Assembly: GCA_021234155.1 (NCBI GenBank)
Contig: JAJEKV010000022.1
Coordinates: forward strand, 3,343,996 to 3,407,995
Reading direction: 5' to 3'
Source of the DNA: Isoetes taiwanensis
Lineage: Eukaryota > Streptophyta > Lycopodiopsida > Isoetales > Isoetaceae
Length of the DNA stretch: 64,000 bases
Shown here: one piece after another, positions 4,488 to 58,711 of the stretch
How the letters are laid out: each line of letters opens with the position of its first letter
Position numbering within the stretch: position 1 is the first letter of the stretch
Notes under the pieces: model-generated
Told to the model about the DNA's origin: nothing
The model's database searches: none
Seen by the model: the letters and a program-made list of their open reading frames with translations, nothing else
Position numbers and translations under genes: made by a program

Positions 4488-6528
4488 AGAAATCAGTTTT
4501 TTTAGATTTCCTTGAGCTTCTCCTCGATGGCTCAGGGGTTTGTTTTCTGCTGTTTTTCTTTTTTTTTATGTGGTATGAAACAATTTGCCAAGGATTAAGC
4601 ATTTCTTCTCTTTGCAGGTCTTTGTCAATAATATATATCAAATAAGCTTGCTCAAATAAGCCAGATTTATCACTATCATAGGGATCATCTTCATGGATAT
4701 TTGGATCTTGATTCTTGTTGCTTGAATCAGAGATGTCAATATCTTCAATAATTTCTTCAATGATCACATTGCTGCTAATCTTATTGCTACTCATCTGATC
4801 ATTCCAAGGTATGCAAACTTGGGCTGGTACAATTACCTTCACCTCTTTATATTCCCCCTTCTCAAAAGTGTGTTCTTTTTTCAGATCCCTTTTGGGGACC
4901 CATTCCTTCTTTCCATGAGTTTGATACATAGGATCTTTCCCCTTGGAATTTAGATTGTCCTTTTTAGGCTCAATAATTGGGGTTTTAGAGTAGCTGATCT
5001 TGATATCTAGGAAGGTGTCCTCATCAATTCTTGAACCAATATATTTCTCCCAGTTAGAGTTGATTTCCTTCATGATACATATGGAAGGAAAATCAGTTTA
5101 GGGAATGGATATATGAATTACTTTCCCCAAACACTCACCAATTTCCTTAAGATGATTATTTGTCCAAAACAAAGGAGGCAAATCCGGGCAGGAAACCCAA
5201 GTGGTGGTAGCAATGGTAGAGAAATTTCCTGGGATATAAAGAGGATTCCATTTCATAATGTAGGCAGGACAATTAGCAATAGAAGAGATTTTTCTGGTCA
5301 GAATGTACTTCATGTGGTTGCTATCCCTGCAGATAATCTGAAAAGTTCTGGAATCCATCTTTAAGATAGAAAGAATAGGAATGTTTATATTTTTATTGAT
5401 CCAGCCTTTAACTTCATAAATCTGAGGACAGTTTTTAGGAAAATGAACTAGAATACCATGGGAAGAGAATTTCACAAAGGCCTCTTTATCTTGGATAGCA
5501 TAAAGATCTACAACTGAGCCCTTAACAAATTCCTTACCATCTATATTACCAAAAGGACACTTCCCTATAGAAGAATTAAGAAAAACATTTTTGAAAGAGG
5601 GAAGCGTACCATTTATTTTATCATATTTGCCCAGGGTAGGGATTTTTTACTTGAGCTTGGTGTCTGAGATCTTTGTTGACTGCTTGTCCAAGTTAAGATT
5701 TACAATCTTTTGGCAATTCGGACATCCACACTGAGCAGCATCACGAGGATTGAAGTAGCCATTTGAATCACAAATGGTGCAATCTTTTGTAGGGGTAAGC
5801 TTGTGCATGACAGTATCGTGCTCCGCCTCAATGTTCTTAAGTTCAGCAGTAGCCAGGAGAGAGAGATCATCCTTAAATTTTTCCTTAAACTTTATGATTT
5901 CGTGATCATCCGCTGCCTCCCAAACTCGTACCAGGCGAAAAGAGGCTTTAGAATTCCACCCCAACAATTCTAGATCTTCTGCCAAATCTTTGGTTGTTTG
6001 CAACAGCTCGGTCATACTTTTCTTGAAGGCCTGATTTTTCAGACTGCAGCAATCTTCCTTGGAATGTCTTGTTTTGACTCTGATCATTTGGTAGAGGAGA
6101 AGGTCTAACTCTTGAATCCTCTTGATCATGTTCCAGACAAGATCTCGGTCATTGGCTTTCCCCTCGGCATATTGATTTTCTAGCCTTATGATTTCCTCTT
6201 CACATGCAGGAATAAGGCCTTCTTTCTTGATTCCCATGCATTCGGCTGCTGCTTTCTGTTGATCCCTGATAATATCGAAAGATACTGTAAGTTCTTTCAT
6301 TTTTGTCCATGCAGGGTCGACTTCTTTCTCCAGTGTGAGAATGATCTTCCAGTCTTTGTTATCTTGGTCTAAAGTTTTATAGTCTTCCTCATCTTCCCAC
6401 CTGTTTTGGCGTGAGGATTTGCCTTTGAGAACAGTTTTCTTAGGCCTCATTCTGGAGGACAAGAAGCTCAATTCCGGGGACCCAAGCAAAGTTCTTGACA
6501 AGATTAGAGATGGAAAATACTGCAACAC
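4477..6528 (-). pseudogene. LINE A ORF1 (DUF4283-type), two in-frame TAA stops
   Basis: One reading frame runs from 6528 to 4477, broken only by TAA codons at 5647-5649 and 5098-5100. The N-terminal third is acidic and coiled-coil-like and ends in a cysteine cluster (CTICDSNGYF, then CGCPNC). The middle (about 5640-5100) resembles the DUF4283 nucleic-acid-binding domain of plant LINE ORF1 proteins, ending WVSCPDLPPLFWTNNHLKEI. The C-terminal third is low-complexity and lysine-rich (SRRSSRKSKK). The family packages LINE RNA. Both stops could arise from CAA by C-to-T change. The Cys cluster could be a captured host piece, but the shared frame favours one ORF1. Confidence 0.7.
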
Positions 6529-10394: not shown

Positions 10395-11727
10395 CTATTT
10401 CTCCATCAGACGTGCTGATCTCCTAGGTTCAATAACAGGTACAACAGGTGCTGCAACCGGTTCTGCAACAATTTGTTTCTCCTTGAGACGTGCTGATCTC
10501 CTAGGTTCAACAACAGGAGGTATAGCAAGTGTTACAATAGGTGCTGTAACAGGTGCTGGATCAGGTACTACAGTACCTTCATGTGTGCTGGACTCCCCCT
10601 GAAAGGAACCAACCTGCTCATGGACCATAGGGCGAGTGGGATTGGGATCATCCCGTGCCACTACTTCAGGCAAATGTGAGTTCACTGGAGAAACCACTAC
10701 AGAGGGAGAGAAAGGTCTACCAGCAGCTGCTATTAGATCTCCAACATCCAAGATATTGTCATTGTGAACTGCAGGAGAATCAATGGAAGATATACCATCA
10801 TATACAACATCTTCAACAAACTGAACTGACCTGCTTACAATAATCTGCTTGTTGGAAGGATCATACAACTTGTAACCTTTCTGATTTTCTGGATACCCAA
10901 TGAAGATGGCTTTGACAGCCCTGTCATGCAACTTCCCATACTTTTTCAGCTTTTCAGCAGGTATAGAAGCATAAGCCAAACATCCAAACACCCTCAAATG
11001 AGACGGACTGCCTTAGTAGGCGACCTATTTGCCAAATATGCTGCTGTCACTACAGCCTCTCCCCAAAAAAATTCAGGCAGTTGCTTGTGATTCATCATAA
11101 ATCTTGGCAAATCAAGCAAAGATCTATTCCTTCTTTCAGCTACACCATTTTATGGATAAACATAAGGAATGATTAACTATCTTTCAATACCTTCTTCCAT
11201 GAGAAACTCATCAAAGGCATTAGAAACATATTCATCTCCATTGTCACTTCTCAACTTTTTTATTACTAACCCTGTCTGCTTTTTGATTGCTGCTTTGAAG
11301 GCCTTGAACTTGCCAAGCACCTCAGATTTGCAGTGCAAAGTATACACCCAAGCGTACCTACTGAAATCATCAATCAGGGTCAAAAAATACCTCTTTCTAC
11401 CTAGTGAAACATCAGGCATATAGCACAAATCAGAATGCAGCAGCTCAAGAGGTTGAGTTGCTCGATGAATAGCCTGCTGTGGAAAAGGCTGTTGAGGTTG
11501 CTTCCGAGATGGCATGCAGCACACTCAAGCTTGACACATTTCAGAGAGGGAATACCTGTAACCATCTTGTTCTTGTACAAAGCATGTACAGCAGTGCCTC
11601 CAACATGACGAAAACGAGCATGCCACAGATGCTCAGCAGTCAAATCAGCACATACAAGACCATGTTTAGTCTTATAAACTGAACCATCAAAGACATACAA
11701 GCCATTCTGCAGCGTCCACTTTGCCAT
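10395..11727 (-). pseudogene. Copia integrase region, frameshifted
   Basis: The first piece (11727-11401) has the gag-pre-integrase zinc site HLWHARFRHVG with CAACH. The catalytic core follows in another frame (11524-11177): LELLHSDL, LTLIDDFSRYAWVY, and LRSDNGDEY supply the two aspartates of DD(35)E. A broken stretch, where the glutamate should fall, separates this from RVFGCLAYASIP and KAIFIGYPENQKGYKLYDP (10997-10395), the integrase C-terminal region. The later part has a twice-repeated RRSARL motif. Integrase would insert the cDNA, but several frameshifts and stops make this copy inactive. Confidence 0.9.
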
Positions 11728-11730
11728 GAA

Positions 11731-12885
11731 CTACAGACTTTTCAAGTCAATTCCTTCAAGTGGATTCCTGCCCAGCAGATAGGCTTTGCCATTTCCAAGA
11801 ACAATGTGATGGCCTGCTTTATCAAATTCGATATTAGACTGTAATCCGGGAGCAAACATAACATTCCTCACCTTACTAACAACATCACGTACATGCAATT
11901 GAAAAGCTACAATCCCCTTTCCTGTGATAGGAAGAGGATATCCATCACCCATCTTCACATCACCTCCAGATCGAGGTTCAAGTTCAGAAAACACATCTGA
12001 ATTTCCGGTAAGATGAACCATGGCTCCTGAGTCCAAAATCCAGTCCTTCTGTAAGGTGTTGGCCGCTGCTGCAAGATTCAGATATTCAGCATCAAAAGTA
12101 GCACACGCAACAACACTTGTCTCTCCTTTAGAGTTGACTGTTGTGCTTCTCGTGTCACTATCCTTTGAGCTTTTCTTCTCCTTCTTAGAATTCGAACTGT
12201 AGTGACCCTTTTCACCACAATTCCAGCACTTGAACTCCTTGGATTTCTTACCATCAAACTTCACATTTTCTGACTTCCTAGAGTTTTTGCTATCAGCAAA
12301 CTTTTTCTTGGTGTCAGCCCGAGAAGTAGACACAAAACTTGCGTGGTCCACTCTCCCATCCCTTTGCTTCTGCACCAACTCCTCTTGTTGCAGTAGAATG
12401 GTTACTTTGGCTATATCAATCTTCTCCTTGTACCTAATCTTCGAAGAGATAATATCATACGAAGGAGGAAGACCAACCAAGATATCTTGAATCAGCTATT
12501 TTTCAGACAGCAATGCACCAGCAGCCATGTAATCCAAGCGCCATTGCTTCATCTGAGTAAAGTATGATGTGACAGATTTGAAATCACCTAATTGGGCATG
12601 TCTCATTTTGTTCTGGATCAGCATTTGGGTAGCCATACCCTTGCTATCAAGAGACTTCTCCAAATGAGACCACATCTCCTTAAACTCAGTAAAATGGTTG
12701 ATTTCATGACCAATTGTCTCTTCAGCCAACATTTTGACAAGAGCACAAGCTTTCTGGTTTACCCTGCCAGCATCAAACACCGCTCGCATGTCGCTAAATA
12801 TCAAATAATTCGCCATGAACTTCTTCCAAGCATGGTAATTATTATTAGTGAGCTTTGCATTATGTGAGAACTTGAATGGATCCAT
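11731..12885 (-). pseudogene. Copia gag and protease region
   Basis: The start MDPFKFSHNAKLTNNNYHAW is the typical Copia gag opening (L.G.NY..W). A stop after ALLSEK at 12496 interrupts the frame. It resumes in the same frame with MVGLPPSYDIISSKIRYKE, the UBN2/retrotran_gag type. A zinc knuckle CWNCGEKGHYSSNS follows, but its fourth ligand C is replaced, so it is probably defective. WILDSGAMVHLTGN is the aspartic protease site (DSG). The region ends near GKAYLLGRNPLEGIDLKSL. These parts make the particle shell and mature it. Confidence 0.92.
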
Positions 12886-42900: not shown

Positions 42901-44645
42901 ACTAGAAGGAGATGAAAGAAATTGTTAAATCGCAATGGGAAAAGAAAAGCAGAGGATCAATTGGGTATCGGACCCAGTCTGTGTTGGACAAGGGGGTGTC
43001 ATCTTGTGGAACCTGAAAAAAGCACGTGCATTAATAGGAGGAGTTATTTTCTTACCTTTTTTCGTATGTATACTACGGGTCATAGGGATTTTTGGATGTT
43101 TTTATAGTTATAAAATCAAACAGAAAGAGGTCAAATTTTCCTATCAGAATGCGTATACTAGGATTTTTTGGCTACCTTATGCACACAGGTAGCATGTCCC
43201 ATATAAAGAAGGTGGATCCCCCGGGGTGTTGGAATTCTAGGACGGCTAGTTTTCGTTTTGCAGCCCTCCATCTGAGGTGGCATATATCTCGACCCTTGAT
43301 TTTCAGATTGTATGGTGCGGATTTGCCATGCCATTTTTTTTATTAATATCCATGTTTGCTCAGAGAACAAATGTGATACAATGAAAAGTTGGTACACTTC
43401 GGCTACCATTGAGAAACCTATGTTTACAGAACCTGGTTTTCTGACCATATGTTTGTTAGTTAGTTCAATGGTTAAAGCTATAAGAGGATTAAAGGTTTGG
43501 ATAAATTTTAAAACATACATTTTTGGTTATGCATTCGATTTAAGAATATAGCATAAGGTTTTTTTTAAAAAAACTAAGGAGCCAGTATTTGTTGGCATAC
43601 ATCGAGTTACGCTAATATGCATTTATGGCGGTCCAGTAGTTTGGTGAGAAAGCATGACTTTTACACATCTGCTGGGACTTACAAAATCTAAGAAATATCT
43701 GGCTTAGGGTATATGGAATACGATTCAGATGGGGAAGAGATTTCCGGGCCAGAACATGAATGGTTAAACGAAGAGGATCTTAGGCGAGAACTTGAGGCAT
43801 ATTGTGGTATTGAGAATCATTGCGATAGCAGTAAGGATAAGATCATGGATAACTGAGGCTACAGAGGCGGCTATGGCCATAATAAAAATGCATATAACAG
43901 AGATGAAAGGGCTAGAGTTCAGAGGGGATCAAGAATCTCCGGTAAAAAGAGACAAGGGAATTTTCTACCAGCTCAGAATGACAACGAAACACTGGAGATG
44001 GATGATGACATGGATCTTAATCAGGTTCTTTGATCTTGCCTGGTTAACATAGTTTGCCTTTTTCATAATACATGGGAAAACTGTAGACGAATCGCTGGGA
44101 CTACTCTGAATAAGGTAGATGCTATAGATTTAAAGAAATATCTCTTATCTTTAGCTGCCTGGATGTTATTCTGTTTTTTGACGACCATATTTAGTTATAT
44201 AGAGTTTTGGACTTACGGTTTTAATACGGCCTTCAGCCTTGGACTGACAGCGGATCTGTACTTTAGAATAGTAAGGCATGAGCCTCTCAAGTTCTTTCAG
44301 AGAGGTATAAGAATGCAGCTAATATGGTTCACCATTAGGGGACGTGTTTGTTTAAGATTGTTACATGGTTGGATCTGGGAATGATTTCAATAGAGACAAC
44401 TCTGATAATAATATTCCTATCAACATACTGCAGTTTAGATCTGGACGTAGTCCTTTCTTAAAACTCCTTAGTATTGTGCCTTGCACATAAATTTTAATAA
44501 TGTGGCTTTTGACACTAAACAAAATGATAGTTTATCTGATATATCTAGATAAATTTTATTGTTTATAAAAGGTTTTTACATGTATCATAAAGGTTTCTTT
44601 CCTCTTTAAATGTTTTTTCCTACATCTTTATTTAACTAAAAGGGA
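42901..44645. other. No intact gene; possible LINE trace
   Basis: At about 42935-43040 a plus-strand frame, GKEKQRINWVSDPVCVGQGG followed by VILWNLKKARALIGG, recalls the post-reverse-transcriptase W...C.P...GGL.I..L..A.AL pattern of LINEs. It has no neighbouring support. The rest is AT-rich with short open frames and nothing recognised. Confidence 0.35.
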
Positions 44646-44651
44646 CAAAAG

Positions 44652-44776
44652 GGACAAAGGGTGACCAGCGATGAGCTGAAGATCCCTATGTACCTTTTGG
44701 CCCTTGCATTGTTACCCGTAATCTGGCTAACAGTGTATTGAATGGCTGCAGGTACGGGATCTTCTTCCCTTTGTCC
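44652..44776 (+). ncRNA. Structured RNA-like element, copy A
   Basis: 125 nt with nested complementary segments. Outer stem: GGACAAAGGG (44652-44661) with CCCTTTGTCC (44767-44776). Small hairpin: CAGC-GATGA-GCTG (44666-44678). Stem 2: AAGATCCC (44679-44686) with GGGATCTT (44756-44763). Extension: GTACC (44690-44694) with GGTAC (44751-44755). Stem 3: CATTGTTA (44707-44714) with TAACAGTG (44728-44735). Strand is assigned arbitrarily. No known RNA family was recognised. Confidence 0.6.
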
Positions 44777-44779
44777 ATT

Positions 44780-45800
44780 TTTGTTCATTTTGGTTAAAGC
44801 TGGATGTTGGGACGTTGTTGATATGAAGAAGCTGTTTCCTTTGTTAATCTACTATGCTGGGGGACATAATGAAGCATATACTATGCGGATTGATAATTTG
44901 GAATATTACGTATTCCTAACCTTTACTTCTGTTTTCTGACTCTTATGAAGTATTGGCTAATATAGCCTACTGACCTGTGGTATACACACATAATATAGTT
45001 GTACGGTGTTATGACAGAGTTATAGATATGTTTGCATAAAGGATTATATGTCTAAAGAGTTTTATCATATGTAGTAATGTTATGACAGCTAGTTGGACAG
45101 TACGATTTGGATTCTGGCTCTCTACTATAATTAGTATGAGGGTTTTTAAAAAAAAAATGGAAAAAACAATTTTGAAAAAGGGTTGTGACCTTAAGTATTA
45201 GGTGAATGAGTGATCTTCTTGTGGTGCAATGTTCAGAATATGCTGGATTCGTTGTAGTTGTATCTAGCGGATTTACTGCTTTCTATATGAATATTTGATA
45301 CTGATTGTTTCTTCTAAGGGGCTGATAATAACATACGTACTCTAATTGCCTCTTTATTAAATTGGAGCTGGAAAGGTTTAGTATTATTTAAGATAAATAA
45401 TATGCTGACCTGTATCATGGGCAACATGTCCCCTTGGCTTTATTAAATAAATATGTATTTGGTTTAAGCTGACCTACACGGTGTGCTTTAGATTGAGACA
45501 TGAAAAAAGTCTGGTATCTAAAGATGAGGCATTGGTCTCGAAAAAGCATACCTCTATACTTTATAGGGGTTGGTGTTTAATAAGAATTCCCTGATTTCAG
45601 TATACATGTTCGGTAGATGGCCTCGTATACAGTTTTATCTTCTAAGTGACCATTGATTTATATGATAACACAAATGTTTGTTTGGAATTGTCTTAAAAAA
45701 GGAATAAAAGGTCATTTATATGGTATAAAGAAGAGAGAATAAAGTATAACATTGACACAATATTTGAAAAACTCGAGTAGATAATAAGATACTATGCTGG
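44780..45800. other. No recognised gene
   Basis: AT-rich sequence with no supported coding region. Short open frames only. Confidence 0.5.
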
Positions 45801-45805
45801 ATAAA

Positions 45806-45910
45806 CTCAGTCCGGTAGTAGGATGATAATACTACCGATGGATTGACTGAGGTGGATGTTTGATCTAGTTTCACTAGGTCAAACCGGCTCTCTCTTTTTT
45901 TTTTTTTTTT
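45806..45910 (+). ncRNA. Candidate hairpin RNA followed by T16
   Basis: CTCAGTC (45806-45812) pairs with GACTGAG (45845-45851), enclosing GGTAGTA (45814-45820) with TACTACC (45830-45836). A second hairpin TTTGATCTAG-TTTCA-CTAGGTCAAA follows (45859-45883, one G-U). CCGGCTCTCTC leads into a 16-T run (45895-45910), which would terminate RNA polymerase III. No internal A/B box was found and no family was recognised. Confidence 0.4.
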
Positions 45911-46028
45911 ACTTTCATGGCAAAATGTGAGTCTAGGTTGGCAGGTTGCTACCCCATAGTATGCTTCTATGGCAAAGGCATAATATACAAGCGAGTCTAG
46001 GTTGGCAGGTTGCTATGCCATAATTGAC

Positions 46029-47420
46029 ACATGGCATAGATGTATTTAGAGGTGTGGCTAAAAATTCTAACAAAGTTATCTACCTTGGCCGTGCTCTATC
46101 TTATGGAAAAGGTTTTTGTCTATGGACATATACCAATTAAATTGAAAGATTTTGCATGCATGTTTAACATTTGTTGTAAAAAGTCTTGCATGTTTGCCCC
46201 TATGCACTATGATAGCCGCGAAGTTGAAGTTGTAGATAGCTACAAGTATCTTGGTGTAGAATTCTGCCAGAACACACTTTGGGAACAGTGTATTACCAAG
46301 CGGGTGGCTGCTGGATGGAGAGCACTCTATGCCATGCAAAACAATTGTTTTCGCGTAGAAATTCATGATTGGCCACGGAAAGCCCACTTGTTTCGGGCTT
46401 TGGTAGAGCCTGTTTTACTGTATGGTTCTGAAGTGTGGGGGCCTGCCATTAGTGCTAGTGCTTGGGAGAGCTTGGAGCGGGTGCAAAAGTCCTTTCTTAC
46501 TTACAACCTTGGAGTTAAAACAACGGTGCCCTATGCTATTCTTTTACAAGAGACAGGTTTTTGGCCTCTTCAACATTCCGCTATGAAGCGCCATCTCCAC
46601 TATATCTGCAAGGTGCACCACATGGATGATGTTAGGTATCCTGTTCTTGCACTTGCCATGGCTGAATCTCCTCAGCGTTTGAAACGATGTTGGAAAGAGC
46701 ATTGGACTACATGGTTTGCCCGTTGGTCATGTGCAAACCGAATCGCCTTTGCGATGCTTGCCGATTCGATCCCGAGCTTTTGCAACAATATCTTAATGGT
46801 CGTTTTCTCAAAAGATATGGGACCTTGATTACTTTGGCCCAAGTGGCGGGGTCATTATCATGCACACATAAATCCCACTTTGGCACCGGGGCCCCAAGCT
46901 TATTTGCTTGCTTCATTGTCCGGGAACAAGCTTGTAGCTATTGAGTCAATTCGCACGGGGTCCCACAGTGCTACGGATTGAGGCGGGTAGATGGGAGCGG
47001 CCGCGAATTTTGCGAGAAGCGAGACTATGTACCTGTTGCCAGTTACAGGTTATTGAAGATGAAAGCCATACTCTTCTGAGTTGCCCTGCTTTTGAGATAG
47101 TCCGGAATTATTTTTCGACCTTAGTATTCCATTCCACGCTTCCACAACTTCTCAGCACACCATCTGTGCATGACTTGGCATTATATATACTTGAGGTTCT
47201 AGATAAACGTCTGCAATTACTGAGCCCTCAGTAGTCATTATCTAAGCTTGTCTAGTATCATCATTACTGCAAAGGTTTTTCCCTTGAAAACCTTTCGAGG
47301 CAGGGGTTTTTTAATCCTAGTAGTAATGATTGTACTAGCCCATTGTATGGGTCCCATGACCTATTGGTCTCCGTGGACGTTAAAAAAACTATTCTATTCT
47401 ATTCTATTCTATTCTATTTA
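46029..47420 (+). mobile_element. LINE D, 5'-truncated, with (TATTC)n tail
   Basis: The open frame 46040-46828 holds the ORF2 C-terminus: SREVEVVDSYKYLGVEFCQN, ALVEPVLLYGSEVWGPAISA, LGVKTTVPYAILLQETGFWP. Continuation in another frame has a cysteine-rich segment CTCCQLQVIEDESHTLLSCP (47020-47090). The non-coding end repeats the LINE C block (GGTTTTTCCCTTGAAAACCT, GGTCTCCGTGGACGT) and finishes in TATTC repeats (about 47390-47420). Just upstream a 70-bp unit (GAGTCTAGGTTGGCAGGTTG) is duplicated at 45930-46020. Reverse transcriptase itself is missing; 5' truncation is the likely cause. Confidence 0.85.
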
Positions 47421-47424
47421 TCTT

Positions 47425-48235
47425 TCTTGAAAATAAGCACTTTATGGCATGCCATTTTTAACTTTTTAATTTGGCACCTTACAAGATAGAAGGTACGTTG
47501 CTTTATTCCTTATGGTATAATAAAGGGATTTTTGGCTACGAAAGTTTGCAAATAGGATATTGTCTTTTCTCTCATTACATTTTGCAAAAGTAAAAAACAG
47601 AGAGGCAAGAGCTATGGAAACGGACAGCCGCCTCTAGCTTACAGAACTGTGAGCCACACGATTTTGCTGGAGTTGCTAGTTGGAAACTTGACTGCGAGAT
47701 GGAGACATTTCCTTCATACATTCCAAAGGTAAAATCTGATTCATTGATAGTTTAAGATAGTAAGCTTGGATGGATGTGAATGCTCTGACATAAAGCGGAA
47801 AGCTATTCAAAGATTTCCATATCCGGAAGTGTTAGGCTTTCTAAATAGCCACAGCCCACACAAGCGGTTTTTCCCAGGCAAAGGGCAGCATAAAGTTTAT
47901 ATGGATGCTCATTTAGATCAGACAACATTCTTGCAATGCCCTTTGCATGAGGCGCAAGGGTTTGGACCATAGTAAGGACGATGCTCTTATGCTAGACATA
48001 TGAAGACATGCAATAAGGTTTGCCATATTTGTTCTTAGAATTCAGAGGCTATATGAGTTTATCGTAGCCAAGTTTCTGGTTTTTTGCTCTACCATGCTAG
48101 CAGGCTTTAGCAATAACAGAAGTTTAATAGATTTACTCTGTTCATTTGATCTATACATTTGATAAGATCCTTTACTTTGTTCATTTGATTTATACATTTG
48201 ATAAGATCATGTTTGAGTCTACAATGGGCAAAGAG
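47425..48235. other. No recognised gene
   Basis: Non-coding. A duplicated phrase TTTGTTCATTTGATYTATAC followed by ATTTGATAAGATC is present at about 48137 and 48175. No coding family was recognised. Confidence 0.5.
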
Positions 48236-48362
48236 GATACAAATGGTGACCGGTGATGAACCGAGAAGCCAGTTGTACCTTTTGGCCCTTGCTACATTAC
48301 CATTTTCATGCTAATGTAGTATTGTTTGGCTGCAGGTACCAGGCTTCTCTTCCCTTTGTGTC
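48236..48362 (+). ncRNA. Structured RNA-like element, copy B
   Basis: Same architecture as copy A with different bases. Outer stem GATACAAATGG (48236-48246) with CCCTTTGTGTC (48352-48362), one mismatch and one G-U. Small hairpin CGGT-GATGA-ACCG (48251-48263). Stem 2 AGAAGCC (48264-48270) with GGCTTCT (48342-48348). Extension GTACC with GGTAC. Stem 3 CTACATTA (48292-48299) with TAATGTAG (48312-48319). Identical unpaired blocks include CCTTTTGGCCCTTGC and TGGCTGCAGGTAC. Confidence 0.6.
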
Positions 48363-48738
48363 TTTCTTTGCTTATGAAATTAGTTTTTGCTGAAGAATGG
48401 ACAAGAAACGTACACTGCATGTAGTTTTCAGCCAAGTTCTACATGCCAAGTTTATTTACACTTTAGATTTGATGATGGACGAATTTTTACAAATGAGGAA
48501 GTTTTTCTATGCTATCTACATCGAAAGATACACATCAAGTAATATCGTTCTCTTTTTCAAGATCTGATATTTACCATAATGGGGCTGAAGGCTGCAGGCA
48601 AATATATGATCTACTAAAATTAGAGTTGTTCTTTAGTTCAAATTCGTGCTTACCTTTCATCTTTCAAAGTATGTCTGTTATTCTGCTGTATAGTGGCAGC
48701 TTTGAGGGCAATGTTAAAGCCTTGAAATGAAAAGTCCT

Positions 48739-49155
48739 TTATACATCAGGCACACAATATACGAGAAAGCTTTTTGTGTAAGCAAAGCTTGCGTACAAGG
48801 AATGTAATAATGCTTTGGGACTAGCATTTTTCTTAAAAGTAGCAGTGAAACATAAAGAGTTTTTAAAAGCTTCATCATTCATCATGAATTCTAACAGGGT
48901 AGCAGGGCACTCAACATGTTTTACATCCCTTTTTGGCCACTGAATGAATGTGCCTACTGCTTCACCAATGTTATCTGCCTCTCCGCAGGGGATTGGAAGT
49001 TCAGTCGATGGGACCACAGACTCTGTGACCTCAATTGCTACATTCGAAGGATCTATGTCCTTGCCATGAAGAGTGGATTTATTTATAATATGGCCACTAG
49101 CAACAACTTCCCTCCGACGAACAAGCTGTACAGGGGAAAGTTGAAGCTGCTTCAA
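48739..49155 (-). pseudogene. DUF8039-like transposon-associated fragment
   Basis: Residues VVASGHIINKSTLHGKDIDP, SNVAIEVTESVVPSTELPIP, and CGEADNIGEAVGTFIQWPKR match the layout of DUF8039. That layout is VA.G.....VHG, a run of hydrophobic V.V..V, LP.P, then (D/E)A.GTF..WP. In plants this domain occurs with En/Spm (CACTA) transposon proteins. About 138 codons are open and no transposase (TNP2) domain was seen beside it, so it is likely a remnant. Confidence 0.6.
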
Positions 49156-49540
49156 GCAAGCCGAAATTTTTTAGAACATACGAATCAGTAGAAAAACATG
49201 TAGTAAACAAGCAAAAATGGCGTCATTTAGTACAAAAATTATTTGGGCAATATATGCAAGCAAATGGCGCCATGGACCATTTTGACCCAATTTGGACCAA
49301 ATGGCGCCATGGCGCCATTTCGTCCAAATGTACACCTCTCGATTAAGTTTGGACCAATTCATGCGGGATTACCCTGTAATGTTCTGGCCTTTGGCTCGAA
49401 CATCATGCACCACTCTTTGCAAAGATGGATTGAAATGCCTAGTTGGTATGAAATTTAATCCAAATGGCACCATTTGACAAGCGAAGGGAAAATATTAGTG
49501 ATTATCCCTAGCGATTATCAACACACTGCACCTTAGCTCC

Positions 49541-50983
49541 ATGAAAAAATTTACACAAGTCACTAATTGTGGTATATCCCAGCTATCCATATGTCCACTA
49601 GAGTTAGCAACTGAAGGATCTGTTAGTTGGGAGTACTGGGATTATGAAGAAGGTGGAAAAGATAAGTGGGGAAAGCCAAAGAAAATACTGAAGCGTTTGT
49701 GGAAAGAAACTGAGCCGCGAGCTTTAGTACACAAGTTAATTGACAGGTTGGCTAAATTTCCTTTGCATAGTTTCAGGCATAAGTGGCAGGCCAAGCAATT
49801 TAAGGAGTTGCTGGAAAATCTTCCACCAGGTACTCTTTTGTCAGTTGTAGATTTTGCTGAGAACTTTAGTATCCAGCTACAAAATCAGGTCCAATCTGCA
49901 TATTGGACTAGCAAACAGGTTACTATCTTAGTGCATATTACATACTTTGTAGATCCTGTATCAAATGATGTGATGAAGGATACCCATTATTATATATCAG
50001 ATGACACAAAGCATGATACTTTGTTTGTTCAGCATGCATTTATGATGCATTATGAATTTATGCAACAACAAGGAATGGATCCAAATAAACATTGGGTCTT
50101 TTCAGATGGAGCAGCATCTCAGTTTAAGGCAGCAAGACCTTTTTACTTTGTCGGAAGGTATGCATATGCCACACATATACAGATGATGTGGAACTTTTTT
50201 TGTTCCAACCATGAGAAAGGGGAGCATGATGGAAAAGATGCAGAATTGAAGAGATGGTTGAGGGAATTGATGAAGAGACATCAAGATCTGAAAATAGAAC
50301 GTGCAGCAGATATAGTGAAGATAGCTAGGGAGAGCTTCTCATCTGTGGCTCCATCATCTAGTGTGAACAAGAAGCCAGTACGAAGATGGTTTTGGGAAGT
50401 GGTGGGGGTGAATAGAAACATTTGGGCAGCAGAGACAGTGGAGGACACACGAAACATCCATTCTGTTCATGCATTTAATCCAGAATGCCCTACCCAATTG
50501 CAGGTAAGGTGTTTGTCATGCTTTTGTGCAAATTGCCTTGATGCTCAATGGGGTAAATGTATGAACAAAGAGTATGTAGATGATTGGAAGCTTGTAGTTA
50601 TTGAACCTAGCAAGGTTCTAGCTAATGAATTTGAGCTACGCAAATCCAAAAGAACAATTTTCTCTTCAGGGTCAGCCATGTTGAGTGATGCCGTAATAGT
50701 AGGTGATACGTTTGCTGTGGTAGCTCCAAAGGATAATGAAGAGGGTGCACTATTTTGGATGGTACTATGCACAAAGACTAAGTATGTTGTGGAGGAAGAC
50801 TTTGAGTTAAATGGACAAACATTTTATAGAGGAGAGGAACTTCTTGAAGGTACTTATTTTGAAAAGGTACCAAGATCACGTACAAGCTATGTTTTATGCT
50901 CTAATGAGCCAAAGGCGATAGTTTATGCAACCCAAATTTGTGAAATTAAAGTGGACATGCCACAAGCAAAACACCGAAAGTGA
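49541..50983 (+). CDS. Transposase-like protein, DFAEN / SDGAxSQFK family
   Basis: An uninterrupted 480-codon frame. Motifs in order: VVDFAENFSIQLQNQVQSAY (near 103), ILVHITYFVD (near 128), YYISDDTKHDTLFVQHAFMM (near 149), HWVFSDGAASQFKAARPFYF (near 182), and NFFCSNHEKGEHDGKDAELK (near 215). The C-terminus has a cysteine cluster CLSCFCANCL (near 325) and a VGDTFAVVAP...FWMVLC segment. The motif order matches a widespread eukaryotic family of uncharacterised proteins, and the spaced acidic residues suggest an RNase H-fold DDE transposase; that is inference. The ATG at 49541 is conventional, but an upstream exon is possible. Being intact, it is either recent or domesticated. Confidence 0.7.
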   Translation: MKKFTQVTNCGISQLSICPLELATEGSVSWEYWDYEEGGKDKWGKPKKILKRLWKETEPRALVHKLIDRLAKFPLHSFRHKWQAKQFKELLENLPPGTLLSVVDFAENFSIQLQNQVQSAYWTSKQVTILVHITYFVDPVSNDVMKDTHYYISDDTKHDTLFVQHAFMMHYEFMQQQGMDPNKHWVFSDGAASQFKAARPFYFVGRYAYATHIQMMWNFFCSNHEKGEHDGKDAELKRWLRELMKRHQDLKIERAADIVKIARESFSSVAPSSSVNKKPVRRWFWEVVGVNRNIWAAETVEDTRNIHSVHAFNPECPTQLQVRCLSCFCANCLDAQWGKCMNKEYVDDWKLVVIEPSKVLANEFELRKSKRTIFSSGSAMLSDAVIVGDTFAVVAPKDNEEGALFWMVLCTKTKYVVEEDFELNGQTFYRGEELLEGTYFEKVPRSRTSYVLCSNEPKAIVYATQICEIKVDMPQAKHRK

Positions 50984-50989
50984 AGGGCA

Positions 50990-52655
50990 AGATCGTATAC
51001 ACACTCGTGAGAGAGAGAGAGTGATAGTGAGAAGATCTTGGACAATCTACGGATGTATTATCGGATGATCTAAGACTAACACCGCGGTACATTTTGTAAT
51101 GTTAGTTGAATGTAAGGTTCTTTTTTTTAGACATCATTTCCATTGATACCTTTCACTTGTTGCAGGTCACAACTATCTCAATGGATTCATACTGTTGACT
51201 CAGATAAATGTTTGCTGAGAATTGCTCTCAGATTTTGATTTATCATAATTGCTCAGATTTGCTCAAACAAGGATAAATACTCTTAATCCTAAGCTTTGAA
51301 TCTACATATGACTATAGCTCAGCTCAGCTCAGCTTTGTTGTTCTCATATTTTAGTAATTCTCAGATTTTTGTTGTTCTCATATTTGCTTGTTATTTTGTT
51401 ATTCTGATATTAGTCAAAATTCATACAGACATGAACATTTCCATTAGTCAAAATTCATACAGACATGGTTGCTAGGGAGCATCAAATCTCGAGTAAATTG
51501 TTAGAGGATTCACAGAACTTCAATATAAGCTGGAACTTCAATATAAGTTGGAACTGCCCGAGCTTACCTAATAGCCAGAACTTCAATATAAGCTGGAACT
51601 TCAATATAAGTTGGAACTGCCCGAGCTTACCAAATACCAATGCTATTCAACTGTTATGGGCCTTGTACAAATGTGAAAACCTAAGAAAATGAAGAATAAA
51701 TCCAAATCTTATATATTCAAAATAGACCAAGTTATCATTGAGCTAAACTTAGCTCCCCTTTTTTCCAAAAAAGCCATTGTATTCCAAATATATATGAAAC
51801 CTCAAAGTAAATTCTTACCAAGTCTGCTGAAAGTAAAATGAATACACTACTAAACATATTTCAAGTTAAAACTGCAGATCTGGATCAAGATGATCCATTC
51901 ATAATATTCAAACAATTTGTAGTAGAATCCACTAACAAAGAGTAAGGAAACCTGTTACCTGCATCCACAAACTAGAACAAGCATTAGAATGGTTGGTCAA
52001 GTATGGGATAGCAGGTGTCGTGTGTTTCCTTAAGGTCATCCCCCGTCACCTTGCTAGCATTCAATTGACAAATAGAAAGCAAAGCTATATTATGAGTCCT
52101 AGATTAAGCAGTCAAAAAAGTCTGAATAAATTATTAACCACTTTTTCATATGATCATCTAGGAATCTTTTCTGTAAGCTGATCCCTGCTTGCAGAATTAA
52201 TCTCAGCATCAACCTCATCTATTTACACATGTATCTTACATTATTACCACTATCTGGCCGCTGATCCTGGGTGTATTTAACTGTCAGCTTAAATGCCAGT
52301 GCATGCTTTCTACATCATGACCCTGTTTTAAAGCTATAAAAAATTCAGCCAATAACAAACATAGGAACCCTGTTCTATTATCAAATTATTTTACACAAGC
52401 CAATGCAATTCCTAAAACCCTTTTTCAGATCTAATTTAGGCATTCTAGGTTATCATACCCCATGCTTTCCTTCATAAAATCCTGATCTAACATGTAAAAA
52501 AATTTTAGACTAGATCTGCATTATAGTATTACGTTAAAACTGCCTGCTATGGCTAGGCATAAACCCATATAATAGACAACTCTATTTTAAGCTTTAAAAA
52601 TCTGCACAAACATAGCCACATGGATAGATTTATTCTTAGAATAAATTTGCAATTA
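50990..52655. other. No recognised gene; minisatellite inside
   Basis: 3' flank of the transposase-like ORF followed by AT-rich sequence. CAGCTCAGCT repeats occur at about 51317-51334. No terminal inverted repeat for the upstream ORF was found by eye. Confidence 0.5.
51513..51635. repeat. 63-bp tandem duplication
   Basis: Two 63-bp units starting CAGAACTTCAATATAAG, nearly identical. Each contains an internal ACTTCAATATAAGYTGGA doublet, so this is a two-level repeat. Confidence 0.93.
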
Positions 52656-56655: not shown

Positions 56656-56771
56656 CTATAGAAAATGCATGGATCTACCTTGCACATGGTCTCTAAATTA
56701 AGAGTACAATACTGTGATAAATTGTGTTGTGATAAATTCTGTTCATTATATGATGAGTTTTTTTTAGAAAA

Positions 56772-56905
56772 ATAAATGGTGAATGGCATTAAGCCGGATG
56801 GGTCTTTAGCTTACTTGTTAGTGGCTTATGCATTTACCCTGTTTAGGCTAACTTGCATTTGGTTCCACTGCAGGTAACCGGACTTATTCCTCCATGTGGT
56901 TTATG
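56772..56905 (+). ncRNA. Structured RNA-like element, diverged copy C
   Basis: The order of parts resembles copies A and B. TAAGCCGG (56790-56797) pairs with CCGGACTTA (56878-56886), one bulge. ATGCATTTA (56828-56836) pairs with TAACTTGCAT (56849-56858). The block CACTGCAGGTAA corresponds to GGCTGCAGGTAC. The outer stem is weak. It lies between the two LINE E halves. Confidence 0.4.
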
Positions 56906-57072: not shown

Positions 57073-58711
57073 TTGGAAAGCTCTTTAGTGTTCCTTCTTT
57101 TTGCACATATTTTTCTTTGGCTCTTGCTGTGTTTGGCGGCCGGTTTTGATACCCCTGTTGCGGCCTCCTGCTGTAAACCCCTGAATATGGTGATGGCGGG
57201 GAATTCTGCACCGATTTTGGGCCTGGAGAAGGCTGGGCCAGGGATTCGTGTCAGAGATGCTGCGAGAGGAAAGAAAGGAGGCAAGGACATATCCAAAAGC
57301 TGCATCAGCTTGGCGCTGGATCTCCAAGAGCCAATTCTTAGCCAGGATGTATCCAGTAGGCATCCGGTGGATTCCCAGGAGCTGGCTTCTGGAAATTCGG
57401 AGAGAATGGAGAATAGAGAGGTGGTGCCCAGCTCAATGCCACCTTTGGAGTCTGTAACTTTGCCATCTTTGGTTGGTGAGAATGGTGGTTTGCTGCCAGA
57501 AGACCCCTTTCGGGTATGTTCCCCCAGAGGTGATGCCTCAGCCACCACGAGCCCCAGCTTCTCATGCATGGAAAGGTAATGATACTGTTGCCCGTCTTTC
57601 TAGGCCTAGGTTTTCTGATTGGATTAGGCAACCGTTGCAAGCAGAAAGTGCAGAGAAAAGTTCTAGGGTGACAGAGGCACTGTTTATCTTAGAGCAGAAT
57701 AACAAGAAGGATTTGCAGCAAGTTTTTAAATCACTATCTCCTGTTGTAGAAATTAATCACCAGAAGCATGTGCAGTATACAGAGAATTTGGTTGCATCTG
57801 CGGTGTTAGGCCATTTCATTGGGGCCTTTTTGGATATGCAGAGGCTTGGCTACTGGCTACGGGCTCAGTTTAAGAGGCTGGGGTTGCCTCCATATATGAC
57901 CCTGAAGTCTCTGGGTAGTAATTTTTTTCTTATTATGGTTGATTCTGAGGCCACGGTGGAGCAGTTGGTCTCGCATGGAGTGGCACGTATGGGAGGGGCC
58001 TATGTTTTGTTCCAGCATTATGCTCTAGGTTTCTCTTCTGCTAGGCCTGCTGCAGTTAGAGTGCCATGCTGGCTTCAAATCCGGGATCTGCCTCCAGAGA
58101 TGATGGTGCCTGAGTTTCTAGTGGCCATGGCCAAAGGCCTGGGAACTCACATAGTGCACTCGATTGTGAATGCACCACAGATATGTGTAGGTATTCGGGC
58201 GGATGAAGTGTTACCTCAGAGTCTTGTGGTTAAGAGTGGTGATTATTATTCTTATTTCCAGCTGGAAGTCTCTGGGTAGTAATTTTTTTCTTATTATGGT
58301 TGATTCTGAGGCCGCGGTGGAGCAGTTGGTCTCGCATGGAGTGGCACGTATGGGAGGGGCCTATGTTTTGTTCCAGCATTATGCTCCAGGTTTCTCTTAC
58401 GCTGGGCTGCTGCGGTTAGAGTGCCATCTTCGGCTTCAAATCAGGGATCCGCCTCCGAGAGATGATGGTGCACGAGTTTCTAGTGGCCATGGCCAAAGGC
58501 CTGGGAACTCACATAGTGCACTCGATTGTGAATGCACCACAGATATGTGTAGGTATTCGGGCGGATGAAGTGTTACCTCAGAGTCTTGTGGTTAAGAGTG
58601 GTGATTATTATTCTTATTTCCAGCTGGACTTGCTCAATGGGGGAGAGCTTTTGGCAATGTTTCCCTCGCTTAAGCAGTTTCACCAGCATAATCTGCATTC
58701 AGCACCCAAGT
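57073..58711 (+). pseudogene. LINE E ORF1 (DUF4283-type), frameshifted, partly duplicated
   Basis: The N-terminal frame 57073-57520 includes MAGNSAPILGLEKAGPGIRV and NGGLLPEDPFR. It then shifts to APASHAWKGNDTVARLSRPR and RVTEALFILEQNNKKDLQQV. The DUF4283-like domain is YWLRAQFKRLGLPPYMTLKS, FFLIMVDSEATVEQLVSHGV, PCWLQIRDLPPEMMVPEFLV. A 361-bp segment of it is duplicated in tandem, which shifts the frame. The end carries LNGGELLAMFPSLKQFHQHN and a stop at 58711. The family binds LINE RNA. At least two frameshifts make it inactive. Confidence 0.85.
57904..58625. repeat. 361-bp tandem duplication in LINE E ORF1
   Basis: GAAGTCTCTGGGTAGTAATT occurs at 57904 and 58265. The 361-bp units are about 96% alike up to TTATTTCCAGCTGGA. 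361 is not a multiple of three, so the duplication breaks the frame. It postdates most of the element's life, as few differences have accumulated. Confidence 0.95.

Follow-up and report, generated by a model that had tools for sequence, protein, structure and literature searches.

A recurrent three-way-junction RNA in the terminal repeats of a putative Penelope-type retroelement of Isoetes taiwanensis

The window analyzed here, a 64,000-nucleotide stretch of the Isoetes taiwanensis genome, carries two pseudo-long terminal repeats (pLTRs), each of which holds one copy, A or B, of a folded RNA of ~130 nt that we call R1 (Table 1). These are two of many copies, as a genome-wide string count finds the 16-base core of R1 2,691 times vs once for the reversed control. 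The copy-A pLTR is a solo repeat bounded by T-runs, and just before the downstream run it ends in a second conserved block, R2. The copy-B pLTR is interrupted by a LINE-like fragment, separate from R1 and with no Pfam match, and its homology to related repeats ends before any R2. Both copies lie where the original prediction had placed them and are recovered by a covariance model built from 12 sequences, A and B among them; the window also holds two strongly diverged copies absent from that prediction. The minus-strand one belongs to a subfamily whose copies are often ~6.1 kb apart (40 genomic relatives scored out of 424 candidates), and the other to a subfamily that forms tandem units of ~5.56 kb elsewhere in the genome (40 scored out of 932); one tandem array has four R1 copies at this ~5.56-kb spacing. 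Among viral contigs, eight stretches contain the R1 16-mer and 20 the RT peptide pattern, with R1 detected by the covariance model in none of the eight and a relative confirmed in none of the 20.

Table 1. Features of the window discussed in the text (positions within the window).
Feature	Position	Strand	Evidence and remarks
T-runs bounding the copy-A solo pLTR	43334-43341 and 45895-45910
Solo pLTR with copy A	43342-45888	+	88-94% to the L031 terminal repeats; boundaries read from sequence
R1 copy A (three-way junction), span of the core model	44649-44778	+	Covariance model match, 136.4 bits; fold z -7.9
R2, conserved 3'-terminal pLTR block just before T-run	45793-45888	+	Start set by eye
Copy-B pLTR, 5' part	45911-46194	+	Begins after T-run; 90-97% to L003, L004, L005, L006, L008, L009
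LINE-like fragment (by eye) with (CTATT)n tail	46195-47416	+	Homology gap; tandem repeat 47389-47418; ORF 46040-46828
Copy-B pLTR, remainder	47417-48848	+	89-93% to L003-L007 and L011, up to 48848
R1 copy B	48234-48363	+	Covariance model match, 150.1 bits; fold z -6.7
Diverged R1 copy	51931-52059	-	Covariance model, 39.5 bits, E 1e-6
Diverged R1 copy	56767-56903	+	Covariance model, 37 bits, E 4e-6

R1 folds as a three-way junction in which a long basal helix is followed by a short hairpin, with a 4-bp stem and a GNRA-like loop of five bases, and then by a long interrupted arm whose core, GUACCUUUUGGCCCUU / UUGGCUGCAGGUAC, hardly varies in sequence; the structure also has invariant unpaired bases and a conserved C-C mismatch. 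Folding energies are -76.0 kcal/mol for copy A, whose basal helix is near-perfect, and -63.7 kcal/mol for copy B, and in neither case did any of 200 dinucleotide shuffles fold as well. The helix swaps between A and B quoted in the original prediction as a sign of selection on RNA structure (CAGC/GCTG vs CGGT/ACCG, AAGATCCC/GGGATCTT vs AGAAGCC/GGCTTCT and CATTGTTA/TAACAGTG vs CTACATTA/TAATGTAG) are all present in the sequence, and the covariation that it proposed to seek in further copies holds across 54 divergent ones. When 54 distinct divergent rows were aligned to the model, 92.8% of 2,469 cells were paired and two-sided changes occurred at 38 of 46 pairs, a number reached by 0 of 500 shuffles. 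In a MAFFT alignment of 54 copies made from sequence alone, 14 pairs out of 64 were significant (E≤0.05) under a tree-aware null of our own construction, with 15 of the 16,407 other column pairs passing the same cut against 12.8 expected. Both alignments omit four of the 51 R1 matches (L041, L046, L059 and L081; one cut off, three near-duplicates), and from the MAFFT alignment the two strongly diverged copies of the window were also removed, as were columns with gaps in at least half of the rows, while L034 and L035 were included. The RNA structure of R1 is under selection, as had been claimed from the two copies. The claim also covered the outer stem; there, the outermost basal pairs in copy A, formed by 44631-44640 and 44789-44798, are paired in just 20-27 of the 54 copies and are thus peculiar to copy A. 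Near-invariance makes covariation impossible in the middle of the long arm, so pairing there is predicted from folding alone.

R1 sits mid-way within the pLTR of an element with two ORFs (~530 and ~695 aa), direct repeats of 2.1-2.6 kb (observed in L031 and L034-L038) and flanking T-runs. A reverse transcriptase (RT) domain, RVT_1, was found by Pfam in all six ORF2 proteins, which bears out the suggestion that the RNA is a structured part of a retroelement; this element is a family numerous in the genome, with many open RT frames. An RT-anchored sample of 60 loci was taken from 81 RT matches, leaving aside 6 examined beforehand, 6 without the C-terminus and 9 that fitted (7 long, 2 fragments). 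Within 1.0-2.0 kb past the end of the RT match, R1 was found at E≤5e-8 in 51 of the 60 (the L041 copy being cut off at the edge), and three other rows (E 0.07-0.97) were weak antisense matches over R1 copies already counted; the neighboring 0-1.0 and 2.0-3.5 kb at the nine misses yielded two more. R1 therefore lies downstream of the RT in 53 of 60 loci, in sense orientation in 53 of 53, and was not found within the 3.5 kb searched at the other seven. The six RT loci examined beforehand, outside this count, all have R1, three of them having been reached through R1 itself. The snRNA-like gene family that had also been considered finds no support, as the examined copies belong to repeats and share the sense of the RT at all 53 RT-linked loci. 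A functionless foldback, MITE-like or miRNA-like insertion hitchhiking with the element would fit the near-perfect basal helix of copy A, but not the shared orientation, the compensatory changes and invariant core, or the retention of R1 where alignability is otherwise lost across the pLTR, and we regard this disfavored reading as highly improbable.

Five loci contain the R1 of both pLTRs inside the stretch (L031, L034, L037, L038 and L104), and in each the left-pLTR R1 lies upstream of ORF1 and the right-pLTR R1 lies 3' of the RT. This placement would suit an element controlling the RNA in its host phase, through nuclear export, stability, translation start or dimerization, but nothing points specifically to such control, and we think the role unlikely. 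Around R1, TATA and AATAAA motifs gave no clear signal in 79 stretches upstream and 57 downstream beyond small TATA rises 300-350 nt downstream, in a sample that includes antisense matches (several of the 30 rows listed).

In 28 comparisons among eight diverged pLTR or 3' pieces, the 26 BLAST matches all fell in R1 (13), R2 (6) or R3 (7), so that the only alignable noncoding islands among these pieces are R1 and the two blocks, R2 and R3, that abut U-tracts. R1 also flanks a broken RT copy of 39% identity on either side, and it is kept in each of three copies of the short tandem units at L033, which have mere remnants of ORF1 and RT. R2, a BLAST island between subfamilies, folds with a z of -3.45 in the window, but its consensus fold in a 12-sequence alignment is weak (-4.07 kcal/mol), so we grade it as conserved and only probably structured. 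The 17 distinct R2 ends fall into two main patterns, with seven followed by T7-9 and then AGnnAnTT (an internal start), nine by T10-40 and then other sequence, and one ambiguous. None of the copy ends that we read lies inside R1; they are at T-tracts ~0.65-1.3 kb 3' and >1 kb 5' of it.

The affinity of the element was approached through its proteins. Pfam found no RNase H, integrase or protease beside the RT in the six ORF2 proteins or in six ORF1 proteins, and an LTR retrotransposon was set aside on this basis; for ORF1, Pfam matches did not rise above chance and the structure model was poor (pLDDT 41.7), and querying the PDB with the ORF2 sequence returned nothing relevant. Compared with solved structures, the RT model had telomerase RTs as the best 10 Foldseek matches listed (best E 1.1e-3, none below 0.001) and as the 16 top-ranking VIA rows, whose Z values of 6.8-8.8 (next other row, 6.5) are barely above the level the tool calls common, for a model of mean pLDDT 52.9. 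Two of the telomerase structures among the best matches include the three-way-junction RNA of telomerase. This weak resemblance suggests a telomerase-related, Penelope-type retroelement, and, given an RT model closest to telomerase RT, its mode of action would be that of a Penelope-like element. Canonical Penelope-like elements carry a GIY-YIG endonuclease and endonuclease-deficient ones lack it; no Pfam match to GIY-YIG was found at E≤1 in the six ORF2 and six ORF1 proteins (one of each incomplete). Shared with Penelope-like elements are, tentatively, the RT model nearest to telomerase RT and, more plainly, the direct pseudo-LTRs, the solo pLTR of the window, the tandem arrays of R1 and a conserved RNA within the pLTR, whereas the present element differs in its two ORFs without a detected GIY-YIG, its location in T-tracts, an RNA outside Rfam, the lack of a detected hammerhead and pLTRs of 2.1-2.6 kb, compared with 193-218 bp for rotifer examples in the accessible text. 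Penelope-like elements and telomerase RT have a common ancestor, according to the accessible part of PMC3846280. The word 'Penelope' is absent from the main texts of two Isoetes genome papers, and neither R1 nor a Penelope-like family of Isoetes is named in the accessible literature (including PMC8566536 and PMC10541799), most subscription papers aside.

Minimal hammerhead ribozymes are described for the pLTRs of known Penelope-like elements in the accessible portions of PMC7761336 and PMC11167929, which raises the main alternative, that R1 represents a novel self-cleaving ribozyme class standing in for them. Such a ribozyme would cleave transcripts, whether tandem or read-through, into unit-length, perhaps circular, RNA, and rolling reverse transcription would then produce arrays and solo pLTRs. 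Tandem arrays of equal units do exist, and the junction, the GNRA-like loop, the unpaired bases that do not vary and the C-C mismatch of R1 are marks of a compact folded RNA. Hammerheads were found by Rfam in none of the loci scanned (none at E≤1 in seven, none at E≤3 in seven more), although minimal variants can escape the models. A loose hammerhead-core string occurs nine times in eight element loci; the occurrence beside a B-type R1 (L035, 9041) is absent from copy A and, by eye, lacks a self-complementary stem II, and was attributed to chance. Like the hammerheads of Penelope-like pLTRs and Terminons, R1 is a conserved RNA motif inside the pLTR, but it is a three-way junction of ~130 nt with other core sequences, and none of the Rfam models of self-cleaving ribozyme classes matches it in the window or the loci scanned. 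As the original prediction had judged by eye for several models, R1 matches none of the known RNA families searched: the whole window has no match at gathering score among the 4227 families of Rfam 15, a tRNA search found none, and relaxed runs on the scanned loci gave a few sub-gathering matches, none on R1, the strongest (RF00499 in L036, 40.7 bits) lying on an inverted-repeat insert outside R1. Also against cleavage, no copy end that we read falls in R1, and protein binding would account equally well for a core that is mostly paired yet invariant. We consider a ribozyme possible, if rather doubtful, and find it unlikely that R1 is a ribozyme that replaced the hammerhead in a plant lineage of telomerase-related elements, still active in many of the ~2,700 copies and making unit-length or circular RNA.

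The reading that we tentatively prefer, with somewhat less than even confidence, is that R1 is a putative cis-acting domain for ribonucleoprotein (RNP) assembly and RT binding in the RNA of a Penelope-type element. R1 would be where the element's own proteins, the RT and/or the ORF1 protein, dock and assemble, acting like the telomerase RNA three-way junction held by telomerase RT, and only RNA bearing it would be packaged and copied. Target-primed copying would start at the U-tract after R2, with a genomic poly(A/T) tract supplying its nicked A-strand as primer, and the cDNA would join at the other end via the U-tract after R3; such priming and joining would explain the T-run ends, solo pLTRs and tandem arrays. 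The covariation, the sense linkage to the RT, the retention of R1 in diverged pLTRs, beside the 39%-identity RT and in the ORF-remnant units, the telomerase RTs among the model matches and the junction pattern at R2 ends support RNP assembly, and near-invariance of the long-arm core is as expected of a binding surface. The seven RT loci at which R1 was not found and the weakness of the RT model count against it. Moreover, R2 rather than R1 adjoins the presumed start of reverse transcription, so R2 alone could serve RT recognition. LINEs and R2 retroelements have recognition structures in the 3'-UTR, and blocks R2 and R3 resemble these in directly preceding the T-tracts where inserted copies end, whereas R1 lies ~0.65-1.3 kb inside the repeat. 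The likeness of R1 to the telomerase RNA three-way junction (CR4/5, TWJ) lies in the junction, one short 4-bp hairpin and the link to a telomerase-type RT. Arms in telomerase RNA run basal, long P6, short P6.1; in R1 the order of short and long is reversed, so kinship with telomerase RNA is not demonstrated, and R1 is part of the element RNA whereas telomerase RNA comes from a separate gene.

Little is known of how Penelope-like elements select and process their RNA. With R1 in thousands of copies, many open reading frames for the RT, defined T-tract junctions and three conserved RNA signals, the present family makes that question testable. If R1 binds the RT, it would offer a retroelement parallel to the telomerase RNA three-way junction, and if it self-cleaves, it would represent a new ribozyme class; on either reading, R1 gives a specific model for annotating its host element family.

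The original prediction described two copies of an RNA-like element with paired helix swaps between them, and these swaps are indeed present in R1 copies A and B, both of which fold far better than their shuffled versions (z -7.9 for A and -6.7 for B). R1 consists of a basal helix leading into a three-way junction with a short hairpin and a long arm. The hairpin has 4 bp and a five-base loop (e.g. GATGA, GAAGA, GATAA or TATAA) that, if it forms a GNRA fold with one base turned out, presumably resembles the boxB loops of lambda. The long arm starts with a covarying segment, continues into near-constant sequence with GUACCUUUUGGCCCUU opposite UUGGCUGCAGGUAC, and terminates in a stem that covaries, with UUACC...GCUAA closing it and a C-C mismatch. 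Across the genome (1,658,258,908 bases in 1,110 pieces, with the window at G000:C1026:3343996-3407995), the 16-mer core of R1 has 2,691 exact matches (1,302 + 1,389) vs 1 for the reversed control, and copies A and B used as BLAST queries each gave 40 scored relatives, among 1,276 and 1,047 candidates, respectively. A covariance model built from 12 sequences recovered both predicted copies and, elsewhere in the window, a further two that have strongly diverged, each a member of its own separate repeat subfamily.

Selection acts on the R1 structure. When 54 distinct rows were fitted to the covariance model, 38 of the 46 pairs had changed on both sides, extending the predicted covariation to further copies, and pairing was kept in 92.8% of 2,469 cells; none of 500 shuffles reached this level of pairing and covariation, and slid structures scored 36-51%. 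For independence from the model, 54 copies were also aligned by sequence alone and compared with a null in which independent columns were simulated along the tree of copies, using a custom script that is R-scape-like rather than R-scape itself. Among the 64 proposed pairs, taken from the copy A fold (65 minus one lacking a column), 14 passed at E<=0.05 (200 simulations); the basal helix contributes 3, the short hairpin 2, P3 3 and the far arm 4, with another 2 from its apical stem. The null model behaves well, since at the same cut 15 of 16,407 non-proposed column pairs passed vs 12.8 expected. In the all-pairs test (40 simulations), five of 16,471 column pairs reached E<=0.05. P3 held two of these, and the basal helix and the far arm one each; the fifth was shifted by a column within that arm. 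Counting against parts of the fold, the ten outermost copy A pairs form in only 20-27 of 54 copies, and a few inner pairs fail in about half (for instance, 44653-44775 pairs in 28/54 and 44706-44736 in 24/54); the near-invariant pairs of the mid-arm carry no covariation signal for or against pairing.

The carrier was revealed by two R1 copies 6.9 kb apart, identical over the 109 bases searched, as a two-repeat retroelement. Locus L031 has a pseudo-LTR (pLTR) at each end; between them lie first ORF1, 531 aa from stop to stop, and then the RT ORF, open over 546 aa here, with frames of 690-700 aa in many related copies. The pLTR length ranges from about 2.1 kb (B-type, L005) through 2.3 kb (L037) to 2.5 kb (L031, L034, L035). 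ORF1 (~530 aa) has no relatives in Pfam and keeps 44-50% identity and many invariant residues across subfamilies. The RT matched Pfam RVT_1 weakly in all six proteins (best E 6.3e-6, 26.5 bits against a cut-off of 29.6); its AlphaFold model, usable in parts only (mean pLDDT 52.9), found telomerase RTs as its best solved-structure matches, none below E 0.001 in Foldseek. Neither ORF gave a detectable GIY-YIG, RNase H or integrase domain. This make-up is that of an endonuclease-lacking Penelope-type element, a putative placement based on domains.

R1 is co-inherited with the RT in sense orientation. Of the 81 RT matches, 60 were inspected on the downstream side; R1 lay within 1.0-2.0 kb at E<=5e-8 in 51 and within 3.5 kb in 53, always in the RT sense, and was not found within that 3.5 kb at 7. 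A broken RT copy with only 39% identity (L104) still has R1 on both flanks at 40.5 bits, and short tandem units with mere remnants of ORF1 and RT (L033) retain it in all three copies. L103 holds a unit with no recognizable RT match, delimited by two R1 copies at a distance of about 5.56 kb. On the reverse strand of this locus R1 lies at about 87-223 and R3, the block closing the internal region, at about 1203-1234; only about 1.0 kb separates R3 from the R1 before it, so the internal coding part is apparently absent from this tandem unit or has moved.

Between diverged pLTR pieces, little outside R1 is shared. Eight pLTR or 3' pieces taken at different loci gave, over all 28 pairings, 26 BLAST hits, 13 to R1, 6 to R2 at the pLTR 3' end and 7 to R3, which three of the eight pieces, starting beyond it, could not show; no hit fell outside these blocks, and 9 pairs had none at all. 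R2, a second conserved RNA block that is probably structured, reads GATAATAC...GATTGAC...GATG...CTAG...CTAG...CTGG immediately before a T-tract in 12 aligned sequences, its CTGG- or CCGG-like terminus being followed by the T-tract that abuts the internal part. R3 takes a CCTACGGTAGGAGGCAGG-like form plus T6-8 just upstream of the 3' pLTR even in the most diverged copies, ending in a GGAGGCAGG-like stretch before the T6-8 that abuts the pLTR.

Coordinates of R1 copies and runs, the conserved blocks R2 and R3, and ORF1
Feature	Location	Strand	Remarks
R1, strongly diverged	window 51931-52059	-	covariance model
R1, strongly diverged	window 56767-56903	+	covariance model
R2	window 45793-45888; L031 2662-2766, 9544-9651; pLTR ends of L034, L035, L036 and B-type loci		12-sequence alignment
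R3	L034 about 6345-6400; equivalent sites in L031, L035, L036, L103, L104		short block closing internal region
ORF1	L031 2956-4548; homologues in L034-L038		
R1 run	G000:C1098:208064-224881		four copies, spacing about 5.56 kb
R1 run	C73:245212-258950		spacing about 6.86 kb
R1 run	C46:108910-121982		spacing about 6.5 kb

The element occurs with T-tract ends and in solo and tandem forms. Of 17 distinct R2 ends found by motif search, 7 continue as T7-9 and AGnnAnTT, the internal start, 9 as T10-40 and other sequence, and one is ambiguous (L002: T6, an A, further T). Within the window, a 16-T run lies near the end of a solo A-type pLTR, and directly after this run begins a B-type pLTR, later split by a fragment that resembles a LINE and has a (CTATT)n tail. 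The window also contains a 362-bp unit in two head-to-tail copies with 95% matches (57904-58628), set among open frames that look LINE-like by eye. Further features, again judged by eye, are fragments of Copia-type gag/pol that include a CCHC zinc knuckle (about 10395-12495, reverse strand) and a 493-aa frame of transposase-type look that has no Pfam match (49502-50983, forward strand). Among the first 100 16-mer places listed, five runs of three R1 copies are near-equally spaced (C1, two on C46, C73, C78), a spacing consistent with head-to-tail elements.

In the favoured mechanism, a nicked poly(A/T) tract would provide an A-rich primer annealing to the U-tract after R2, from which the RT would copy the pLTR; a halt at the U-tract after R3 would leave a solo pLTR, and continuation through tandem or circular RNA would produce two-pLTR and tandem copies.

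R1 matches no Rfam model and was not turned up by paper searches, and the word Penelope is absent from the main text of both Isoetes genome papers (including PMC8566536). Retroelement repeats are already known to hold cis RNA structures; R1 itself, and the setting it occurs in, seem to be new. Because known Penelope-like elements carry hammerheads in their pLTRs, we retain the reading that R1 is a ribozyme, as a less likely one; in the one purified element, insertion in vitro was reportedly unaffected by HHR mutants (PMC11167929). We prefer assembly of an RNP over catalysis for two reasons: the invariant part of R1 is largely paired, as a binding site would be, and the nearest solved relatives of the RT include telomerases holding a three-way-junction RNA. 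The likeliest, though tentative, part for R1 is to assemble the RT/ORF1 RNP on the element RNA.
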